DNA of 64,000 nt, taken from positions 1-64,000 of the forward strand of contig OMOD01000144.1 of NCBI GenBank assembly GCA_900290255.1. The letters run 5' to 3'. Below the pieces are notes generated by a model, which was not told the origin of the DNA, ran no database searches, and worked only from the letters and a program-made list of their open reading frames with translations. Source of the stretch: Candidatus Sulfotelmatobacter kueseliae. Its GTDB lineage: Bacteria; Acidobacteriota; Terriglobia; Terriglobales; Acidobacteriaceae. The position numbers were made by a program, and so were the translations under genes. Of the stretch, positions 400-40,197 are shown in pieces. The stretch's first letter is position 1, and each line of letters starts with the position of its first letter.

Positions 400-517
<118 letters not shown>

Positions 518-21567: not shown

Positions 21568-22446
21568 TCACGGCCTTGTTTTGGCGATTTCCGGCACGAT
21601 TTCGCCCACTTTCCTGGGTGCGGGGCCGAGGTGATGTTTGGTCAGGCCGTCGCGGAGATACTCGAAGGCTTCCTCCGGGGAATCGATGACCTTGAATTGG
21701 TCGAGGTCCTGAGGAGAGACGGTGCCGGCATCCACGAAGGCCTGGAAGTTGATGATGCGGTTCCAGTATTCACTGCCGTAGATCACGACCAGGATCTTCT
21801 TGGCCAGCTTGTCGGTCTGGGCGAGGGTGAGGATTTCAAACAACTCGTCCATGGTGCCGAAGCCGCCGGGGAAAATGACGAGCCCCTTGGCTAGATAGGC
21901 AAACCAGAATTTGCGCATGAAGAAGTAGTGGAACTGGAAGTTCAGCGAGGGCGTGACGTAGGGGTTGGGAGACTGCTCGAAGGGCAGCTGAATGTTGAGC
22001 CCGATGGTTTTGCCGCCAGCTTCGTGGGCGCCGAGGTTGGCGGCCTCCATGATGCCGGGGCCTCCGCCGGTGGTGACGACGAAACGGCGGCGGCGGGCGG
22101 GAATCTGGACCGACCATTTGGTCAGCAGGTAAGCCAGGCGACGGGCGTCTTCGTAGTAGCGGGCCATGTCAATGCCGGCCTGGGCGAGTTTGAGATCCTC
22201 GTGCAGCTTGGCTTCGGGAACGTTGGCGTGGTTATTTTCAACGGCAGTCAGGTTCTTCAAGGCCTCCTGGCGCCCCTGGAAGCGGGCTGAGCCGAAGAAG
22301 ACGACCGTGTCCTGAATCTGCTCGCGGCGGAAGCGGGCCAGAGGTTCCTGATATTCAGACAGCATGCGCAGGATACGGCCGTCAGGGCTGTTGAGGAAGA
22401 TTTCGTTCTCGTAGGCGACGGGAGCGGATTTGAGCTGGTCAGACAT
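21568..22446 (-). CDS. LOG family protein (TIGR00730-like)
   Basis: About 292 residues with the Rossmann-like lysine-decarboxylase/LOG fold: VVFFGSARF, VVTTGGGPGIMEAANLGAHEAGG and FPGGFGTMDELFEILTLAQ. The last two are the PGGxGTxxE and GGGxGxM signatures that form the phosphoribohydrolase active site. LOG proteins release free cytokinin-like bases from nucleoside monophosphates; in bacteria they act as nucleotide hydrolases of uncertain role. I use the ATG at 22446 (MSDQLKSAPVAYENE) because the sequence upstream overlaps the membrane protein gene. Confidence 0.88.
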   Translation of the reverse strand: MSDQLKSAPVAYENEIFLNSPDGRILRMLSEYQEPLARFRREQIQDTVVFFGSARFQGRQEALKNLTAVENNHANVPEAKLHEDLKLAQAGIDMARYYEDARRLAYLLTKWSVQIPARRRRFVVTTGGGPGIMEAANLGAHEAGGKTIGLNIQLPFEQSPNPYVTPSLNFQFHYFFMRKFWFAYLAKGLVIFPGGFGTMDELFEILTLAQTDKLAKKILVVIYGSEYWNRIINFQAFVDAGTVSPQDLDQFKVIDSPEEAFEYLRDGLTKHHLGPAPRKVGEIVPEIAKTRP

Positions 22447-22478
22447 AAGTGACTCACATTGTTGAAAAGGCCTTAGGG

Positions 22479-22865
22479 CTATTCTTGCTCGTGGTAGTGG
22501 AGCGCCTCCCAGAAACCGATCCAGATATCGAGCATACCCAGACCGCTGCACATGCCGCGAAAGAAACCGTGTGCGATCACCGGGCGGAGGCTGGGATAAG
22601 CGAGCAACAAGTAATTGTCGGTCCACTCCGGGGTCCAGGGGAGAATGATGAGAAGCACTCCCGCCACAGCACTGACTAAGACAAAAAGAAAAACAGAAAT
22701 GCGGTGCAGCCATAGCTTCAGGCGGCTGGGGCTTGCCGGCGGAACGGGCGGCTGGGGTGGCTCAAGCAAAGCAGTACGGGTCTCGGGCTGCGGCGGGGTG
22801 GTGTCCGGCAGCTTGCCAGGCGGAGAGGAGAAGAGCGTCGGGTCGGTCATGCTCTCCGCCCCCAC
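22479..22865 (-). CDS. Small membrane protein of unknown function
   Basis: 128 residues: a Pro-rich cytoplasmic N-terminus (PPGKLPDTTPPQPETRTALLEPPQPP), one clear membrane helix (ISVFLFVLVSAVAGVLLIILPW), a short loop, and a second weaker hydrophobic segment (LRPVIAHGFFRGMCSGLGMLDIWIGFW). I know no family. It precedes the LOG gene by 32 bp on the same strand and may be co-transcribed with it. The start could also be the ATG at 22850. Confidence 0.6.
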   Translation of the reverse strand: MGAESMTDPTLFSSPPGKLPDTTPPQPETRTALLEPPQPPVPPASPSRLKLWLHRISVFLFVLVSAVAGVLLIILPWTPEWTDNYLLLAYPSLRPVIAHGFFRGMCSGLGMLDIWIGFWEALHYHEQE

Positions 22866-22975: not shown

Positions 22976-25900
22976 CTACGACTTCAGGGCCTTGATGCGC
23001 TCGGCGACGTCGCGATAGTCAATGTTGGTGCCGTAAACGTCCATGAAATGCTTGAGTGCGGCGGGCTTGTCGCCCGCAGTTTCGTAGGCCGAGGCCAATT
23101 CATAGTTGAGGGCGACGCGGGTTTCGCCATCGATGGTGGGAACGCCGAGAGCTTTCTCATACCAGCGTACGGCAGCCTCGGGCACGCCTTTGTCGAGGAA
23201 GCACTGCGCCAGCCAGGTGTAGGTCTGCATGATCTGGGGGAAGGCATGTCCGCGATCGAAAAATTGGCAGGCCTTCTGCAGCTCTCCGATGGCTTCGTCG
23301 AGCAAACCCATTTCGCGGAAAGCAATGCCGAGGTTGTAATGGGTTTCGGGATCTTCGTCAGCAGCAGCGACGTCGGCTTCCAGGTCCTGCTTGAGTTCGC
23401 CAAACATCTCGGCCAGGTCCACTCCCGCTTCTTCGCCGAAGGGCGAGGCTGCTGCGGCAGCGGGCGCGTGAGGGGCAGGGGCGGCCGGCGCGTGAGGAGC
23501 AGGGGCCTCGGCTGCGGGCGCATGCCAGGCTGGCGGTGCGCTTGGTGATGCAGGAACAACAACCGGAGGAGCAACATAAGCCGGGGCTGAGGCCGAAGCC
23601 GCGGCGCTGGCGGCAATCGCCGGGCCAGTTTTCAGAGCGGTCGCGGGCGTAACCACCGGCGCTGCAGGTACGACTTTGACAACGGGAGCGGACGGCTGCG
23701 GCTTGGCGGCCGGAGCGGCCTTCAGGAAATCTTCGCCCAGAGATGCCTCGATATCGGCCACAAATTGGCCCAGGACCGGGGCAGCGTGCGCGGCCGGAGC
23801 CGGGGCATGCGCTGGGGGCGGAGGCGGAACCGGCTTTTTCGCAGGCTTGGCCACCTTGCCAGGCAGGAATTTATCGCCGAGAGAAGACTCCAGGTCGGAA
23901 ACGAACTCGGTAAGGACCCTGGGCGAGTGCGCGGGTTCGGAAACCACGGGTTCAGGTTCACGTTCAGGCTCTGGCTCTGGCTCAACGGCAGCAGTTTCTT
24001 CTGCGACTGGAACTTCTTCCGCTTCAGCGGCGGCCGCAGTTTCCTCGATGACCTCAGGAACCTCCTCGGGTGTAACCTCGATGGTGGGGATATCGTCGGC
24101 GGTCAGTTCCTCGACCACCGGCTCAGTTTCTACCTGGACCTCTTCTGAAGGCTGCTGCGCAGCGGCTTCTACCTCGGCGCGGAGTTCGGCGAGCAGGTCC
24201 TGATCGCCGGTGAGAGTCTGAAGCTTGGCCAAAGCCGCCATGGCCTGCTCGGGCATGCCGTTGGCGAGGTAGAAGCGAATTTCTTCGATGGTTTCTTCTG
24301 TTTTGGTGGAATCACCCTCAGCGGCTGAAGCCTCGGCTTCGGCCACTTCTGCCTCGGGCGTCTCGGCTTCGACGGTAACGGAGTCATCCCACTCGGCCGA
24401 CAGATCAATCTCAGACTCCGTCGCCGCAGCCTCAGCCGGAACCGCAGCAGAATCTTCAACCACGGCGAACTCAGTCTCCTCAGCCGGCTCGCCCGTGACC
24501 TCTTCGGCTGCTTCCGCCTCGGCCTCGGAGGTTTCCTCCACCACTTCGACTTCAGGTTCGGCTTCTGAGTCGGGGACAGTCTCTGACTCGCTGGTCGCGA
24601 CTTCGGGTTCGGCCGCGTGCGCCGCTGGCGCTGGGGCCGGAGCATCCAGGTAAATATGAGCTTCCTCGTGCGCGACCACTGTACCGGGCACCGAGGAGCG
24701 CTCTTCATAGCGCTCAGCCAGTTCCCCGTAGCGCGTGGCTTCGTCGGGATATCCCGCCTCGGAATAAAGATTCTGCAGGGTGCGGCAACAGACGCCGGCG
24801 TCGGCGAAGCGGCCAGCGCGCGTGTGCAAGGCCGCCAGACGCTGGTTGATGCGAAGATCGTTCGGCGCCATGGGCAGAACCGTGACCAGTGGTCCCAGCG
24901 CCTTGGCCGGCATGTTGTAAGAGATGAACAGTTCGGCGTCGGTCAGAGCGGAGCGCACGGCGAGCGCCACTTCGTCGGAGTAGTGCTGGTGGACCGAAGG
25001 CGCGGTGGCTTCGATGTCGTCAATGAGAACCACGGCTTCTTCCGGCGTAATCAGCTTGACGTCGGAAGTGCCGCTGAGCTGGCTGACCACCTGCTGGTAA
25101 TTCTGCATGTGCAGGGGGTTCTGGGGCTCGACTTGGGCCAGCTTCTGGTAGAGATCGCGGGCGCGCGGCAGGTCGCCAGCCTGGACGCTGGCATGAGCCA
25201 GCAGTTCGATGACCTCGCTGACATGGGTGGTTTCACCAGCCTTGTTGAACAGATCCAGCAGCTTTTCCAGAGAGGCGGGATTGTCGCGCACGTGCCCGAT
25301 AATGCTGTGCAGGTGGGCGAGCACCTTGTCCGAGTTCTCCGCCAGCAGACGCTCGGCATGCTCGTCGTATACCTGCAGGGCAGTATCGTACTGGCCCGCC
25401 TGCATGAGGGCATCGGCGAAGCTGGAGATCGCTGTCAGATCATTGTGGACGGTCAGCAGCTTGTTGGCGGTAGCCCCGGCTTCGGAGAGTTGCCCGGTCT
25501 GCAGGTAAGCCTTGAGCAGATCGCGCAGGCCATCGGGATTGGAATCGATGTCGGCGACTTTCAGCAGGGTGGCAACGGCTCCGGCGGCATCGCCCGACTC
25601 GGCCTGGTTTTTGCCCTGCATGAGCAGGGCATACGCATTGCCGGGTTCGAGGGCGAGCATGCGCTGCAGAATCTCGTCGGCGCCGTTGAGCGAACCCTTG
25701 GAGCGCATGCTCTCGGCGGCAGCAGTGAAAATCTGCCAGGCTTCCGCCTTCTTGCCCAGGCGGACATAAACCTCCGCCAAACGTACCCGCATGGTGGTAT
25801 TTTCCGGGTCCATTTCCAGGATCTTCTGGAAGATGCGGACCGCGTTTTCCAGTTCGTTGGCCTTCAGGAATTCTTCCGCCACCTGGAGGTACTGAGCGCG

Positions 25901-26242
25901 GGCGTCATTGAACAGTCCCTGCTGGGTGTAGAGTTCTGCCAGTTTCAGCAGGCTCTCGAGCGAAGGCTTGAGCTTGCTGATCTTCTTGTACATGGCGATC
26001 GCCTTGACCGTGAAGCCCTGGCTGGCATAGGCATCGCCTACGGTCTTGAAGCACTCAGTAGCCTTGTCGGCCTCGCCGATGCGCGAGTAAAGATCGCCGA
26101 CGGTGTTGGTGACGGTTAGATCCTTAGCGTCGTTCTTGAGGATCTTTTCGTACTCCGAGATGGCGTTCGGCAGCTTACCCTGCTGGACATACTTCTCCGC
26201 ATTGGCGAGGACTTTCTGTTTGTTGAAGCCGAACAGCGCCAT
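22976..26242 (-). CDS. Very long TPR protein
   Basis: 1088 residues, cytoplasmic-looking (MALFGFNKQKVLANAEKYVQ QGK, no signal). Residues 15-540 are tandem TPR-like helices (AISEYEKILKNDAKDLTVTNTVGDLYSRIG, and many more). Residues about 545-800 are very rich in Glu, Ala and Val (for example EAEPEVEVVEETSEAEAEAAEE) with a short helical pair, then an Ala/Pro-rich linker with two LxxFVxDIExSLGDxFL repeats. The last 130 residues are again TPR (THYNLGIAFREMGLLDEAIGELQKA). It probably serves as a protein-interaction scaffold. It is divergent from the selenoprotein candidate. Confidence 0.85.
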   Translation of the reverse strand: MALFGFNKQKVLANAEKYVQQGKLPNAISEYEKILKNDAKDLTVTNTVGDLYSRIGEADKATECFKTVGDAYASQGFTVKAIAMYKKISKLKPSLESLLKLAELYTQQGLFNDARAQYLQVAEEFLKANELENAVRIFQKILEMDPENTTMRVRLAEVYVRLGKKAEAWQIFTAAAESMRSKGSLNGADEILQRMLALEPGNAYALLMQGKNQAESGDAAGAVATLLKVADIDSNPDGLRDLLKAYLQTGQLSEAGATANKLLTVHNDLTAISSFADALMQAGQYDTALQVYDEHAERLLAENSDKVLAHLHSIIGHVRDNPASLEKLLDLFNKAGETTHVSEVIELLAHASVQAGDLPRARDLYQKLAQVEPQNPLHMQNYQQVVSQLSGTSDVKLITPEEAVVLIDDIEATAPSVHQHYSDEVALAVRSALTDAELFISYNMPAKALGPLVTVLPMAPNDLRINQRLAALHTRAGRFADAGVCCRTLQNLYSEAGYPDEATRYGELAERYEERSSVPGTVVAHEEAHIYLDAPAPAPAAHAAEPEVATSESETVPDSEAEPEVEVVEETSEAEAEAAEEVTGEPAEETEFAVVEDSAAVPAEAAATESEIDLSAEWDDSVTVEAETPEAEVAEAEASAAEGDSTKTEETIEEIRFYLANGMPEQAMAALAKLQTLTGDQDLLAELRAEVEAAAQQPSEEVQVETEPVVEELTADDIPTIEVTPEEVPEVIEETAAAAEAEEVPVAEETAAVEPEPEPEREPEPVVSEPAHSPRVLTEFVSDLESSLGDKFLPGKVAKPAKKPVPPPPPAHAPAPAAHAAPVLGQFVADIEASLGEDFLKAAPAAKPQPSAPVVKVVPAAPVVTPATALKTGPAIAASAAASASAPAYVAPPVVVPASPSAPPAWHAPAAEAPAPHAPAAPAPHAPAAAAASPFGEEAGVDLAEMFGELKQDLEADVAAADEDPETHYNLGIAFREMGLLDEAIGELQKACQFFDRGHAFPQIMQTYTWLAQCFLDKGVPEAAVRWYEKALGVPTIDGETRVALNYELASAYETAGDKPAALKHFMDVYGTNIDYRDVAERIKALKS

Positions 26243-26571: not shown

Positions 26572-27138
26572 ATGACCTGGATTCGAACCGTGCCGTTAAC
26601 CGAGGCAGACGAAAAGCTTCGCCGCGCAATCGAAGGCGAGAAGTTGCTGTATCCGAAAGAGTATGCCGAGCCGGTGCATCCCGATGCGTCGGGGGCGTCG
26701 TCGATTGTGGGGTCGCATACGCTGATTCCGGAGGCGCTATATCACGCCTTCTCGACGTTTGGGGCGCTGATGTCGCCGGATTTGCCGCTGGAGCGGCGGC
26801 AGCACGAGATGATCGCCACCATGGTCTCGGTGACCAACCGGTGCGTGTATTGAATCGAGTCGCACGCAGAGTTTCTGCGTAGGGTGACTCTGGATAAAGG
26901 ATTAGTCGAGGCGCTGGAGAAGGACTACACCGCAGCGCCCATCACGCCGCAGGACCGGGTGATGCTTGATTATGTGGTCAAGCTGACCAGGGACGCGACC
27001 AAGGTCTGGAAGGATGACATCGAGGGGCTGCGCCAGGCCGGCTTCGACGACCGCGGCATTCTGCAGATTACGCTGATCGCGTCATGGTTCAACTACATCA
27101 ATCGGGTAGCGGACGCGCTGGGCGTGGGGCGGGAGTAG
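26572..27138 (+). CDS. AhpD-like peroxidase, probable selenoprotein (in-frame UGA at residue 94)
   Basis: 188 codons read through a UGA at 26851-26853. The sequence before it ends [19 protein letters not shown], and after it continues in the same frame [16 protein letters not shown]. This is the AhpD/peroxidase-related motif E(12)CxxC(3)H with the second Cys replaced: Glu79, Cys91, UGA94, His98. The spacing equals that of Mycobacterium tuberculosis AhpD (Glu118, Cys130, Cys133, His137), where the second Cys is peroxidatic. A stable hairpin follows the UGA (see next entry). The C-terminal half is full-length ([24 protein letters not shown]). Read as Sec, it would be a CxxU hydroperoxide-reducing enzyme; read as a stop, it would be a broken gene. 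I favour Sec. Confidence 0.8.
26857..26890 (+). promoter_or_regulatory. Candidate bacterial SECIS element
   Basis: Starting 3 nt after the UGA: GAGTCGC (26857-26863) pairs with GTGACTC (26884-26890, one G:U), then a 3-nt bulge AGG on the 3' side, then ACGCAG/CTGCGT (26864-26869/26875-26880) closing the loop AGTTT. That gives 13 pairs with a bulge, an apical loop of 5 nt with G as the second base, and a loop beginning 16 nt after the UGA: the geometry required for SelB-binding SECIS hairpins of the fdhF type. It lies within the coding sequence, as bacterial SECIS must. Confidence 0.75.
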
Positions 27139-27277
27139 GGCTGCCGTGGTTTGTATTGCCGGGGTAGCTAGTGCAGTTGGAAAACTGTACTCCCACCCAC
27201 TCCTGCGCCGCGCGCTTCCACTACACTTGAGCTGAACCGAGGGCGATGGCTGAGTGCAGCTCTTGCCCCGCCTCGTC

Positions 27278-29809
27278 ATGGCCGAATCGTTAGCAGACTT
27301 TTTCCTAAGAAATTTCCGGGAGCACGAGCACGAGTGCGCCTACCGGCAGCATCGCGGATATCGCACGGAGTCGTTCAGTTACGGCCGACTCCTGGAGACG
27401 TCCTTGGGCTTGGCTCGCAAGCTGGAGGCGCTCGGGATTGCGAAGGGCGATCGCGTGATGCTCTGGGGAGAGAACTGCGCCGAGTGGGTCGCAGTTTTCT
27501 TCGGATGTGCGCTGAGCGGGGTGATTGTTGTTCCCATGGATGACGAAGCGGCCCCAGACTTTGCCTTGCGCGTAGCTCAGCAAGCCGGGGCAAAGTTACT
27601 GGCCGGTTCGCGGCGGCACGTGCATGACTGCGCAGTTTCCGCATGTTCTCTCCCAACCCTGGCATTGGAAGATCTGGCGCAAACTCTGGACTCTACTGCA
27701 GCCGCGCCTCCAAGTGTTCCACTGGGCGGCGACGACATTCTGCAGATTGTCTTTACTTCGGGTACGACTGCAGAGCCCAAAGGAGTGGTGATCACGCACG
27801 GCAACGTGCTGGCCAACATCGCGCCGCTGGAGCGGGAGATGCAGGCGTATCTGAAGTACGAATGGCTGGTGCATCCGCTGCGATTCCTGAATCTGCTGCC
27901 ACTCAGCCACGTATTTGGGCAGTTTCTGGGGATGTTCCTGCCTCCTCTGCTGGGCGGAACGGTGATTCTTCAGAACGAACTGAAGCCTTCGGAGGTGATG
28001 AGCACGATCCGGCGCAAGCGAGTTTCGGTGATGGTGAGTGTGCCGCGGGTGCTGCAATCGCTGAAACAGAAAATCGAGCGCGATCTGGAGGACCGAGGCG
28101 AAATGGAGGCTTTCCGGCGTGATTTCGCAGCCGCGAAGGAGAAGCATTTTCTGCGGCGATGGTGGCGGTTTCGCGCGATTCGGCGGCAGTTCGGCTGGAA
28201 ATTCCTGGCGTTCATCTCAGGCGGGGCGGCGCTCGATAGTGAGATCGAAGAGTTTTGGGGACGGTTGGGATATGCCGTGATCCAGGGTTACGGGCTGACA
28301 GAAACCACATCGCTAGTCAGCGTGAACCATCCGTTCCGGCTGGGGAAGGGTTCGATTGGCAAGGTGCTGCCAGGACGGGAGGTGAAGCTAGCGGAAGACG
28401 GCGAGATTATGGTCCGGGGCGGAGGCGTGGCGAGCGGGTACTGGGATGGGCTGGGCGCGCGGAGTGCTTCCGATGAACAGGGCTGGTATCGCACCGGCGA
28501 CATCGGCGCGCTGGATGCCACGGGGAACCTCTATTTCAAGGGACGAAAGAAAGAAGTGATCGTAACTCCGGGCGGAACGAATGTTTATCCGGAAGATTTG
28601 GAAGCGGCATTGCAGCGGCAGCCGGAAGTGAAAGATTGCGTGGTGGTGGGAATCGAGCGCGGAGGAAACGCCGAGCCGTGCGCGGTGGTGATCCCACGCG
28701 GCGAGGCCGACTTAGACAGAGTGGTCGAGCGGGCGAACGAATCGCTGGCGGAGTATCAGCGGATACGGATGTGGGTCGAGTGGCCGCAGGAGGATTTTCC
28801 CCGCACGAGTACGCAGAAGCCGAGAAGAAATCTGATTCGAGATGTGGCGCAGGCACGGATACGTCAGGAGCGTGGGGCAGGTCGAGAGAGCGGACCAATG
28901 GCCGAGTTGATTGCGCGCGTCTCGGGGCGTTCTGTGGGCGGGTTGCGCGATGATGCCAGCCTGGATTCCGATCTGGGCCTAAGTTCACTGGATCGCGTCG
29001 AACTGCTCAGCGCTTTGGAGGATCGCTACCAGATTGATCTCAGCGAGACACGCTTCAGTTCGGTGCAGACGGTCGGGGACCTGGAGCGCATGCTGCGCGG
29101 AGAAACTGCTCCCGGCGCTGGGTATCACTATCCCAGTTGGACCTTGCGGTGGCCGGTGACGTGGGTGCGGTTTGTGGCGCATTATCTGCTGATGCGGCCA
29201 GCGATCATGCTTTTGGGCTGGCCGCAGATCGCAGGGCGCGAGCATTTGCGCGGAGTCGAAGGCCCGCTGCTGGTGGTTTCGAATCACGTAAGCGACGTTG
29301 ACGCGGGATTCATTCTGACCGCGCTGCCCGGCCGCTTTCGGCACCGACTGGCGGTCGCGACCGGAGGAGAAGCGCTCGACGCGCTGCGCACACCGCCGGC
29401 AGGCAGAGGATTCTTCTTGCGGATTTATGACCGCGTGCAATGGGTTCTCGGAGTTTCGCTGCTGAATCTGTTTCCCCTGCCGCGCGAGGCGGGATTCCGG
29501 CGAAGTTTTGCCTACGCGGGAGAGGCCGTGGATCGCGGTTACAGTGTGCTGGTCTTTCCCGAGGGACAGCACACGAAGGGTGGAAAAATGCTGCCGTTTC
29601 GCGCCGGGATCGGGCTGCTGGCGGCGAATTTGGGAATTCCTATATTGCCCATGCGAATCGACGGATTATTCGAACTGAAAGCCGCAGGCAAGAGATTAGC
29701 GCGACCTGGGAAGATTCGCGTGCGAATGGGCGCGCCGATGAGATTTCTGCCGGGAACCGCGCCGGAGGATTTTGCCGCGGAGTTGCAGAAGGCGGTGGAA
29801 CAACTCTAG
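27278..29809 (+). CDS. AMP-ligase / acyl carrier / acyltransferase fusion
   Basis: About 843 residues in three domains. Residues 1-520: acyl-CoA/acyl-ACP synthetase (IVFTSGTTAEPKGVVITHGN, GYGLTETTSLVSVN, GWYRTGDIG, KEVIVTPGGTNVYPED). Residues 535-615: an acyl carrier domain with the phosphopantetheine serine in DSDLGLSSLDRVEL. Residues 640-843: PlsC-type acyltransferase with NHVSDVD (an NHxxxxD box) and FPEGQHTKGG. It could activate a free fatty acid, hold it on its own carrier, and pass it to a lysophospholipid or another acceptor. An alternative GTG start is at 27254. It resembles the Aas-type fusion but with an added carrier domain and reversed domain order. Confidence 0.9.
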   Translation: MAESLADFFLRNFREHEHECAYRQHRGYRTESFSYGRLLETSLGLARKLEALGIAKGDRVMLWGENCAEWVAVFFGCALSGVIVVPMDDEAAPDFALRVAQQAGAKLLAGSRRHVHDCAVSACSLPTLALEDLAQTLDSTAAAPPSVPLGGDDILQIVFTSGTTAEPKGVVITHGNVLANIAPLEREMQAYLKYEWLVHPLRFLNLLPLSHVFGQFLGMFLPPLLGGTVILQNELKPSEVMSTIRRKRVSVMVSVPRVLQSLKQKIERDLEDRGEMEAFRRDFAAAKEKHFLRRWWRFRAIRRQFGWKFLAFISGGAALDSEIEEFWGRLGYAVIQGYGLTETTSLVSVNHPFRLGKGSIGKVLPGREVKLAEDGEIMVRGGGVASGYWDGLGARSASDEQGWYRTGDIGALDATGNLYFKGRKKEVIVTPGGTNVYPEDLEAALQRQPEVKDCVVVGIERGGNAEPCAVVIPRGEADLDRVVERANESLAEYQRIRMWVEWPQEDFPRTSTQKPRRNLIRDVAQARIRQERGAGRESGPMAELIARVSGRSVGGLRDDASLDSDLGLSSLDRVELLSALEDRYQIDLSETRFSSVQTVGDLERMLRGETAPGAGYHYPSWTLRWPVTWVRFVAHYLLMRPAIMLLGWPQIAGREHLRGVEGPLLVVSNHVSDVDAGFILTALPGRFRHRLAVATGGEALDALRTPPAGRGFFLRIYDRVQWVLGVSLLNLFPLPREAGFRRSFAYAGEAVDRGYSVLVFPEGQHTKGGKMLPFRAGIGLLAANLGIPILPMRIDGLFELKAAGKRLARPGKIRVRMGAPMRFLPGTAPEDFAAELQKAVEQL

Positions 29810-38691: not shown

Positions 38692-40197
38692 GTGAACCTC
38701 GATGACACCATTGTCGCGATCGCCACGCCGCCCGGGCGCGGGGGCATTGGCGTCGTGCGGTTGTCCGGGCCTGACGCACGCAAGATCGCCTCGCCGATGC
38801 TGCGGTTGAAGCATGAACTGGAGCCGGGAAGGGCGGTGTTCGGGGAATTAGCTGAACCTGGTGGTGAGGCTGCCGAGCTTCGCTCGGCCGGACAGCCGGG
38901 GGCGGCTGTCCCCACACAGACTACTCGCATCGACGAAGTGGTCGTCACCCACTTTGCCAAGCCACATTCTTACACCACCGACGACATCATCGAGATTTCC
39001 GCACACGGCTCCCCGGTCGTGCTGCGGCACGTCGTTGAGCTTTGTGTGGCTGCTGGTGCGCGCCTGGCGGAGCCGGGCGAATTTACCATGCGGGCCTTTC
39101 TCAATGGCCGCATTGACCTGACGCAGGCCGAGGCCGTCCGCGACCTGATTGACTCGCAGACTCTGTACCAGGCGAAAGTCGCGGCGCAGCAACTGGAAGG
39201 AGCGCTCTCGCGGCGCCTGCAGCCGATCAAACAGAAGCTGGTCGAGTTGATCGCGCTGCTCGAGGCGGGCATTGATTTTGCCGAGGACGACGTGTCTGTC
39301 CTGCCCGACGCCACGATTCTGGAGCACATTGACGCTGTCCGCGCGCCACTCGAACTTCTCGCCGCCAGCTTCGCCTACGGCAAGATGGTGCATGAAGGAT
39401 TGACGCTGGCGATCGTCGGCCGTCCCAACGTGGGTAAGTCGAGCCTTTTCAACCGCCTGGTCGAGCGCGAGCGCGCCATCGTTACGGCCACTCCGGGCAC
39501 GACGCGCGATCTGGTGAGCGAAACCGTGGCGATTGGCGGCATTCCGGTGAGACTGGTGGATACGGCAGGTATTCGCCAGGCGCTCGATGAGGCCGAGTCG
39601 ATCGGCATTCGCAAATCCATGGAAGCGCTGGCGGATGCGGACCTCGTGCTGGTGGTGACGGATGCGTCGCAGCCGGTCACTGAGGAAGATGAAGAACTGG
39701 CCGGGCAGGCAACGCAGCGCGCTGCGATCGTGGTGGAGAACAAGTGTGATTTAAGGGCCAGCGGCCAGGGGTCAGGGGCCAGCACACCGAGCCCGACAGC
39801 CCCGGAGGGGCGTCCGAAAATAGCCCAGCGCTTCAGCGCTGGGACTGGCAGCGGGGAGGAGCGCGTCCCGGAGGGACGCCTGAGCCACGTCCGCACGTCG
39901 GCCATCACGGGCGAAGGCATCGCGGAGCTGCGCGCGGAAATTCTCCGGCACGTTGGAGGAGAAGCCGGAGCGCAGGCCGAAGCCGGATTCCTTACCAACG
40001 TTCGGCATCAGGGTCTGATTCAAGATTCCTGGACCGCGCTGGATGCGGCGAGGAACGCCGTGGCCGGGAAAGTCCCGCACGAAATGCTGCTGCTCGATCT
40101 CTACAATGCCCTGCGTCCGCTGGATGCGATCACGGGCGCGACCACGACCGACGACATCCTCAACTTGATCTTCAGCACCTTCTGCGTCGGAAAGTGA
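38692..40197 (+). CDS. mnmE: tRNA modification GTPase MnmE with repeat-encoded inserts
   Basis: 501 residues (family about 455), GTG start. N-terminal tetrahydrofolate-binding domain, then the GTPase with [12 protein letters not shown] (P-loop), TPGTTRD, DTAGIR and ENKCD, and the C-terminal FCVGK with the catalytic Cys. With MnmG it makes the 5-carboxymethylaminomethyl group at wobble U34 of tRNA. Two segments are foreign: residues about 58-80 ([20 protein letters not shown], from a GGCTGTCCCCACA palindrome) and about 355-400 ([40 protein letters not shown], from CAGCGCTTCAGCGCTG and CGTCCCGGAGGGACG palindromes). The second lies right after the NKCD guanine motif. Frame is intact. Confidence 0.96.
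38874..38927. repeat. GCTTCGCTC/GGCTGTCCCCACA repeat inside mnmE
   Basis: GCCGAGCTTCGCTCGGC followed by CGGACAGCCGGGGGCGGCTG TCCCCACA: two consecutive palindromes, translated in frame in MnmE. A diverged copy with the same first palindrome is inside mnmG at 41535-41583. Confidence 0.8.

Follow-up and report, generated by a model that had tools for sequence, protein, structure and literature searches.

A predicted AhpD-like selenoprotein gene in an uncultured acidobacterium, with a near-invariant SECIS core

AhpD-like selenoproteins with a CxxU motif (U, selenocysteine or Sec) have been known since 2005. In the portions of the publications available to us, 27 such COG2128 proteins are reported from the Sargasso Sea (PMC1088965), a 2008 GOS study gives 299 'AhpD-like 1' (COG2128) and 70 'AhpD-like 2' (pfam02627) proteins (PMC2398784), and the sequences of both reports come from marine metagenomes. 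The available parts of other sources add that a 2006 survey counted two AhpD-like selenoproteins and credited Acidobacteria with four selenoproteins in three families (PMC1794560), that two reviews list the AhpD-like selenoprotein (PMC9312934 and PMC13188914, the latter as TIGR01926 with CxxU), and that deep-Sep was tested on one acidobacterium having three known selenoprotein genes (PMC12013277). The string 'acidobacteri' has no occurrence in the accessible part of a 2026 selenoproteome review, and within the open-access literature we found no title on the orthologous group described below. The active sites of two relatives are given in the accessible text of PMC3141380: M. tuberculosis AhpD has Glu118, Cys130, Cys133, and His137, and P. 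aeruginosa PA0269 (structure 2o4d) has Glu36, Cys48, Tyr50, Cys51, and His55.

We analyzed a 64,000-nucleotide stretch of DNA (the window) from an uncultured, probably soil-living acidobacterium. It contains a gene that is predicted to encode a protein of this kind, with the following parts:

26572..27138, + strand: AhpD-like (TIGR01926/COG2128) selenoprotein gene, 188 residues with U94, predicted from the frame, the profile score, and TGA and codon conservation
26842..26844, + strand: codon of C91, which opens the CxxU motif
26851..26853, + strand: in-frame TGA, predicted selenocysteine codon of residue 94

The frame runs from the ATG at 26572 to the TAG at 27136-27138 and, as the original prediction had it, is open on both sides of the TGA at 26851-26853, which is its sole internal stop. 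Translation with U at the TGA gives a single 188-residue protein and, the TGA aside, the window copy has no other defect. A plain ORF listing splits the gene into 93- and 84-residue ORFs, in keeping with the expectation that standard gene calling would make it look truncated. The joined protein (C for U) scored 111.2 bits with TIGR01926, over the cut-off of 81.8, which assigns it to that family, and the match (residues 50-185) spans the TGA. The Pfam CMD model gave 16.8 bits with the part preceding the TGA alone versus 36.5 bits with the joined protein, and profile searches with the ORF following the TGA (26884-27135) alone found no match. Hence, the claim of one AhpD-type protein across the TGA stood at the level of the wider family but not for AhpD proper, as TIGR00777 scored 16.7 bits, below its cut-off of 191.95.

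The active site motif is E79-x11-C91-V-Y-U94-I-E-S-H98. The claimed spacing of Glu, Cys, UGA, and His (E79-x11-C91-x2-U94-x3-H98) is borne out, and is identical to that of Glu118, Cys130, Cys133, and His137 of M. tuberculosis AhpD as given in the available text of PMC3141380. The window protein differs from that enzyme in having Tyr in place of His132 and Sec in place of Cys133. PA0269, again as described in the accessible part of PMC3141380, has the same five-residue set including the Tyr, but with Cys at the U column; its sequence (2o4d) matched the window protein with an E value of 1.1e-6. The structures 2pfx, 3c1l, 2oyo, 2prr, and 6k40 gave E values of 7e-23 to 4e-17, and the first three of these have Cys at the U column of the alignments. 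Two NCBIfam 20.0 models of AhpD-like (seleno)proteins, NF041238 (AhpD_rel_CFYUT) and NF053654 (GroundWater_YciW), match all 19 members of our alignment A1 with E values of up to 0.001; the window protein scored 57.2 bits versus a cut-off of 175 with the former and 28.1 bits versus 310 with the latter, and thus falls below both.

A scan of contigs confirmed 254 relatives, the best 80 of which were taken (a choice that under-samples distant Cys forms), and the column was counted with a motif that accepted Cys or any stop. In these best 80 of 254 the U94 column had TGA in 80/80 and never TAA or TAG, and no sequence had a second internal stop. Where the stretch extends to the gene end, the final stop is variously TAG, TAA, or TGA. 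By record title, 71 of the 80 are acidobacterial, eight are Gemmatimonadetes or Gemmatimonas, and one is Latescibacterota, although the titles of metagenome-assembled genomes (MAGs) can err. Two genome sets were also searched. The first (61 genomes, the window's own included) had 28 genomes with a full-length match of at least 60% identity and one TGA; the second (396 genomes, own included) had 29 matches with one TGA, spread over 28 genomes, at 61% identity or more, plus one genome, G074, with a full-length match lacking any stop. TAA or TAG was seen in the two sets among some distant matches (five rows, 30-38% identity).

Some copies are damaged. Those of G041 (L162) and G047 (L161) are frameshifted with the TGA retained, and in L162 the core of the hairpin described below is broken as well. 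Remnants are found in G001 (L216, residues 1-37 alone, within a 195,588-base contig) and G376 (L217, residues 118-188 alone, within a 78,325-base contig). These frameshifts and remnants show that part of the lineages have lost the selenoprotein gene or have it in decay. In G032 the match leaves the contig end after residue 81. The original prediction had named other stops or frameshifts in orthologues as the observation that would count against it: the best 80 of 254 relatives have no other internal stop, but the frameshifts of G041 and G047 and the remnants of G001 and G376 do exist. Loss in some lines does not outweigh the evidence for Sec.

The decayed copies are what a pseudogene reading, in which a once intact CxxC gene acquired a nonsense mutation, has in its favor. 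Against it stand the TGA column in relatives carrying three phylum labels, the conservation of the hairpin at codon level, and low dN/dS past the TGA: between the window gene and 15 chosen orthologues dN/dS was 0.03-0.20 for the part preceding the TGA and 0.03-0.21 for the part beyond codon 103, rough values given that many dS were near or above 1. In the 15 pairs compared this indicates purifying selection on both sides of the TGA. We therefore regard a pseudogene as extremely improbable and reject it, together with sequencing error, on the TGA column, codon conservation, stem conservation, and dN/dS.

The selenoprotein reading calls for a hairpin close to the UGA, and the original prediction put one of 13 bp with a 5-nt loop (AGTTT) right after it. 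A hairpin is there, but its dimensions differ:

26857..26890, + strand: whole window hairpin in the MFE fold, 14 pairs and a 3-nt bulge, the lower half unconserved
26863..26880, + strand: predicted SECIS core, codons 98-103 (HAEFLR)

In the MFE fold three unpaired nucleotides follow the UGA before the stem begins, and the loop is GTT. The extent of the hairpin had been overstated, as the upper seven pairs are conserved but the lower stem is not. The core pairs 26864-26870 with 26874-26880 around the GTT loop at 26871-26873; the conserved stem begins 10 nt past the UGA, and the distance from UGA to loop is 17 nt. Codon conservation was scored in 113 distinct genes obtained from 136, with L161 (149 codons) and L163-L165 (not orthologues) excluded. 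Codons 98-103 were the six most codon-conserved of the 112 degenerate columns having conserved amino acids. They read CAC GCA GAG TTT CTG CGT, frozen in this form although GCA makes up 14% of the Ala codons and CGT 13% of the Arg codons of the set; silent positions of codons 95-97 and 104-107 are variable. For the hairpin itself, 114 distinct sequences were picked by the motif C-x-x-stop-x-x-x-H-x-E-F, and so have a stop by construction (TAA or TAG would pass). The 18-nt core was identical in 102 of the 114 and the loop G was invariant (114/114). Changes of core pairs were G-U wobbles (five sequences), loss of the outermost pair (six), and loss of the loop-closing pair (one), with a deeper stem break in the frameshifted L162 alone, which is one of the six. 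No compensatory double change was found at any stem pair among the 114 sequences; covariation support is lacking because the stem hardly varies.

A synonymous-recoding control gave z = -1.7 for the window gene, with 4% of the recodings equally stable. Over the 113 genes the mean z was -1.04, with 102 genes below zero and 11 at z of zero or above. When 22 sliding 13-codon windows were compared (at most 29 genes each), that of the hairpin was lowest at -1.32 and the other 21 ranged from -0.59 to 0.63. This folding advantage is modest, and codon conservation is therefore the stronger evidence. A hairpin just past the UGA with G in a 3-nt apical loop agrees with the bacterial SECIS criterion of a small apical loop containing G, as stated in the available part of PMC1088965, and the hairpin of codons 98-103 is thus a predicted SECIS element.

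The register of the core offers an explanation for the freeze. Numbered over the 18 nucleotides, the pairs are 2-18, 3-17, 4-16, 5-15, 6-14, 7-13, and 8-12. Third-codon bases 3, 6, 12, 15, and 18 thereby pair with second-codon bases 17, 14, 8, 5, and 2; the loop G is at position 9. Hence, the amino acids would fix one side of the stem and pairing the other, which leaves hardly any base free to vary. We consider it likely that this is a selenoenzyme spread through Acidobacteria and Gemmatimonadota, without a Sec-specific NCBIfam model, the SECIS of which is frozen by an RNA-protein lock that bars silent compensation, and that the hairpin was released where Sec was lost, for which G074 is the one case; the two statements share that grade. 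If so, the gene would be a clean natural case for gauging the demands that SelB makes on a SECIS, and would mark selenium use by soil bacteria.

The G074 orthologue (L192, 61% identity) is the only full-length orthologue with a sense codon at the U column. It has TGC (Cys) there, and C91 is replaced by Thr (ACC), giving T-R-Y-C. Its seven stem positions read AG, CC, AA, CG, GT, GC, and AC, so that four pairs are lost, one is a wobble, and two are kept; the L192 RNA still forms some other hairpin (-14.9 kcal/mol). The genome of G074 (99% complete) had no selA match in profile searches and no selB over the cut-off (best 182.5 versus 242.25 bits, positions 1-277 alone), and its best tRNA-Sec match (47.1 bits) was called tRNA-Ser by ARAGORN. 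G367, of the same family as G074, has selA, selB, and a 63.7-bit match that ARAGORN called tRNA-SeC. In a tree of 45 rows (the fragment L210 was excluded, and 25 rows had been chosen for the clade, of which one was lost, being absent from the distinct set) the window clade had 24 Sec rows and one Cys row with support 100/99. L192 lies inside this clade and Sec-to-Cys is thus the simple reading there, a natural exchange that merits study. For the family at large, six changes of the Sec label are required on the tree, in which some end branches are long and of unsure placement. Paralogues with Cys at the column have CxxC (L203-L205 and L207-L209) or SxxC (L202 and L206). With L192, these provide the Sec/Cys pairs that uphold the claim of a UGA in place of the second Cys of CxxC. 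Genomes of the phylum also encode other AhpD-like Sec subfamilies (L193-L201 and L211-L213, with two TGA in the stretch taken for L213), and these carry different hairpins, such as ACGGAGA-GGA-TCTCCGT in L194.

Selenocysteine insertion in bacteria requires SelD, which makes selenophosphate, SelA, which forms Sec-tRNA(Sec), and SelB, which delivers the Sec-tRNA while bound to the SECIS. The window's own genome is a MAG of 198 contigs (96.1% complete, 8.46% contamination), and with such contamination sel genes could in principle stem from another organism. It has selA on C25 (526.6 bits) and selB on C57 (375.6 bits), both over their cut-offs, and selD on C155 in two matches of 270.4 bits (over the cut-off) and 96.1 bits that gave 368.1 bits when joined in one frame. 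The selD gene itself has a Sec TGA (...KAAG-U-ASKLSP...), followed by a GTCCAGC-GGC-GCTGGAC hairpin.

The tRNA was another matter. The Rfam model, a hand-made pattern, and a search with relative sequences found no whole tRNA-Sec gene in the 198-contig assembly. The failure of the pattern in this genome means little, as it required YTTCAAATC where the relative L107 reads CTTCAAAAC. Two fragments are present: L163 (G000:C9:369-437, 91% identity), which starts at the anticodon loop and includes the 3' end, and L164 (G000:C150:45088-45133, 89% identity), a 5' part with an altered anticodon loop. A third match had 23 bases with an E value of 0.97, and ARAGORN called none of the fragments a tRNA. 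L163 and L164 resemble remnants of putative integration into a tRNA-Sec gene. As the Rfam model also scores tRNA-Ser and tRNA-Leu (matches in 14/14 control genomes, over the cut-off in five), tRNA-Sec was counted solely at 64 bits or more or upon an ARAGORN call. Matches of at least 64 bits were found in 23 of the 31 genomes searched, including all 15 other genomes of at least 95% completeness. ARAGORN called tRNA-SeC with anticodon TCA at 15 of 20 loci, the other five being weaker matches; it covered 15 of the 23 strong loci and called all 15 tRNA-SeC. Eight of the 31 genomes had no strong match, and four of these have the TGA gene: our own, G008 (80% complete), G016 (93%), and G026 (89%). 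We read the missing tRNA-Sec of the own genome as a putative assembly gap. In L107 (G013) the tRNA-Sec gene (1501-1598) lies downstream of ORFs whose translations read as peroxiredoxin-like (174-866) and cytochrome-c-like (818-1468).

The machinery accompanies the gene. We surveyed selA in 40 of the 55 TGA-gene genomes other than our own (two with frameshifted copies), together with G074, G367, and G376, and in 15 of 20 same-family control genomes having no gene match at E 1e-15. SelA scored over the cut-off in 39/40 TGA-gene genomes versus 3/15 genomes of the same family without the gene; the exception, G004, had no selA scoring over the cut-off but has both selB and tRNA-Sec. The sel genes sought by the original prediction were therefore found in the own genome as selA, selB, and Sec-type selD, with tRNA-Sec as fragments alone and whole in relatives.

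The frame would be open whatever the TGA encodes, and another residue could enter through code reassignment (code 4/25 type) or near-cognate read-through. Yet TGA terminates another ORF of the window (21568-22713) and is the final stop of this same gene in some relatives, such as L029, and Sec is indicated by the conserved hairpin, by the co-occurrence with selA, and by the exchange with Cys. We give such decoding almost no credence, and reject code reassignment since TGA works as a stop and Sec-specific features are present.

The selenoprotein reading is thus sustained by a single conserved frame, TGA at the U94 column of relatives, replacement of Sec by Cys in G074, a conserved hairpin, and the greater part of the insertion machinery. 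From these sequence comparisons we put the probability at about 0.94 that this is the gene of an AhpD-fold selenoprotein of 188 residues in which UGA 94 is decoded as selenocysteine by the standard bacterial machinery. SelD would supply selenophosphate for Sec synthesis, SelA would make Sec-tRNA(Sec), and SelB, bound to the SECIS, would bring it to the ribosome at UGA 94. The protein joins a known kind. It shares with the published AhpD-like CxxU proteins, as described in the available text of those reports, the family model, the motif, Sec in second position, and a SECIS with G in a small loop. By description its group is set apart from the marine ones by coming from MAGs that carry the labels Acidobacteria, Gemmatimonadetes, and, in one case, Latescibacterota, and by its near-invariant SECIS core.

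In AhpD it is the second Cys that attacks. The mature window protein would be a thiol/selenol redox enzyme using the C91-U94 pair with E79 and H98 assisting: U94 would attack and C91 resolve via a selenenylsulfide. The most likely substrate would be peroxide or, as AhpD does, the enzyme may feed electrons to a peroxiredoxin. Judged from sequence, reduction of peroxides seems somewhat more probable than not. A real selenoprotein that is not a peroxidase (a disulfide oxidoreductase, an adaptor, or a CMD-like enzyme with another substrate) is a tentative alternative to be taken seriously, given that TIGR01926 is merely 'peroxidase-related' and that the TIGR00777 score is low. The flanking genes, neither of which is peroxide-related, also fit a non-peroxidase:

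22976-26242, - strand: TPR protein, upstream neighbor
27254..29809, + strand: AMP-binding/PP-binding/acyltransferase protein, an acyl-activating downstream neighbor

Members of the downstream protein's cluster occur in 43 of 81 stretches (window included), many of which have short flanks. Moreover, the G074 orthologue is TxxC and, in the accessible part of PMC3141380, the fact that TTHA0727 lacks the first Cys is taken to indicate no peroxidase activity. On the other side, E79, C91, Y93, U94, and H98 all match the proton-relay set proposed for PA0269 in the same source. A peroxide-reducing selenoenzyme remains our preferred reading, and the chemistry that it predicts can be tested.

Standard calling divides this gene in two, and it is hereby corrected to a single predicted selenoenzyme gene. 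The AhpD-like selenoprotein is common among uncultured Acidobacteria, and its branch is widespread and easily misannotated.

ARAGORN found no tRNA genes in the window. Two other RNA genes were seen there, an Acido-Lenti-1 RNA at 39798-39843 (- strand, 58.6 bits) and, near the window start, a 5S rRNA gene at 401-517 (+ strand, 99.1 bits). A second Acido-Lenti-1 RNA (40.1 bits) lies at 2941-2986 of L020, on contig C155 of the own genome, with selD within about 1 kb.
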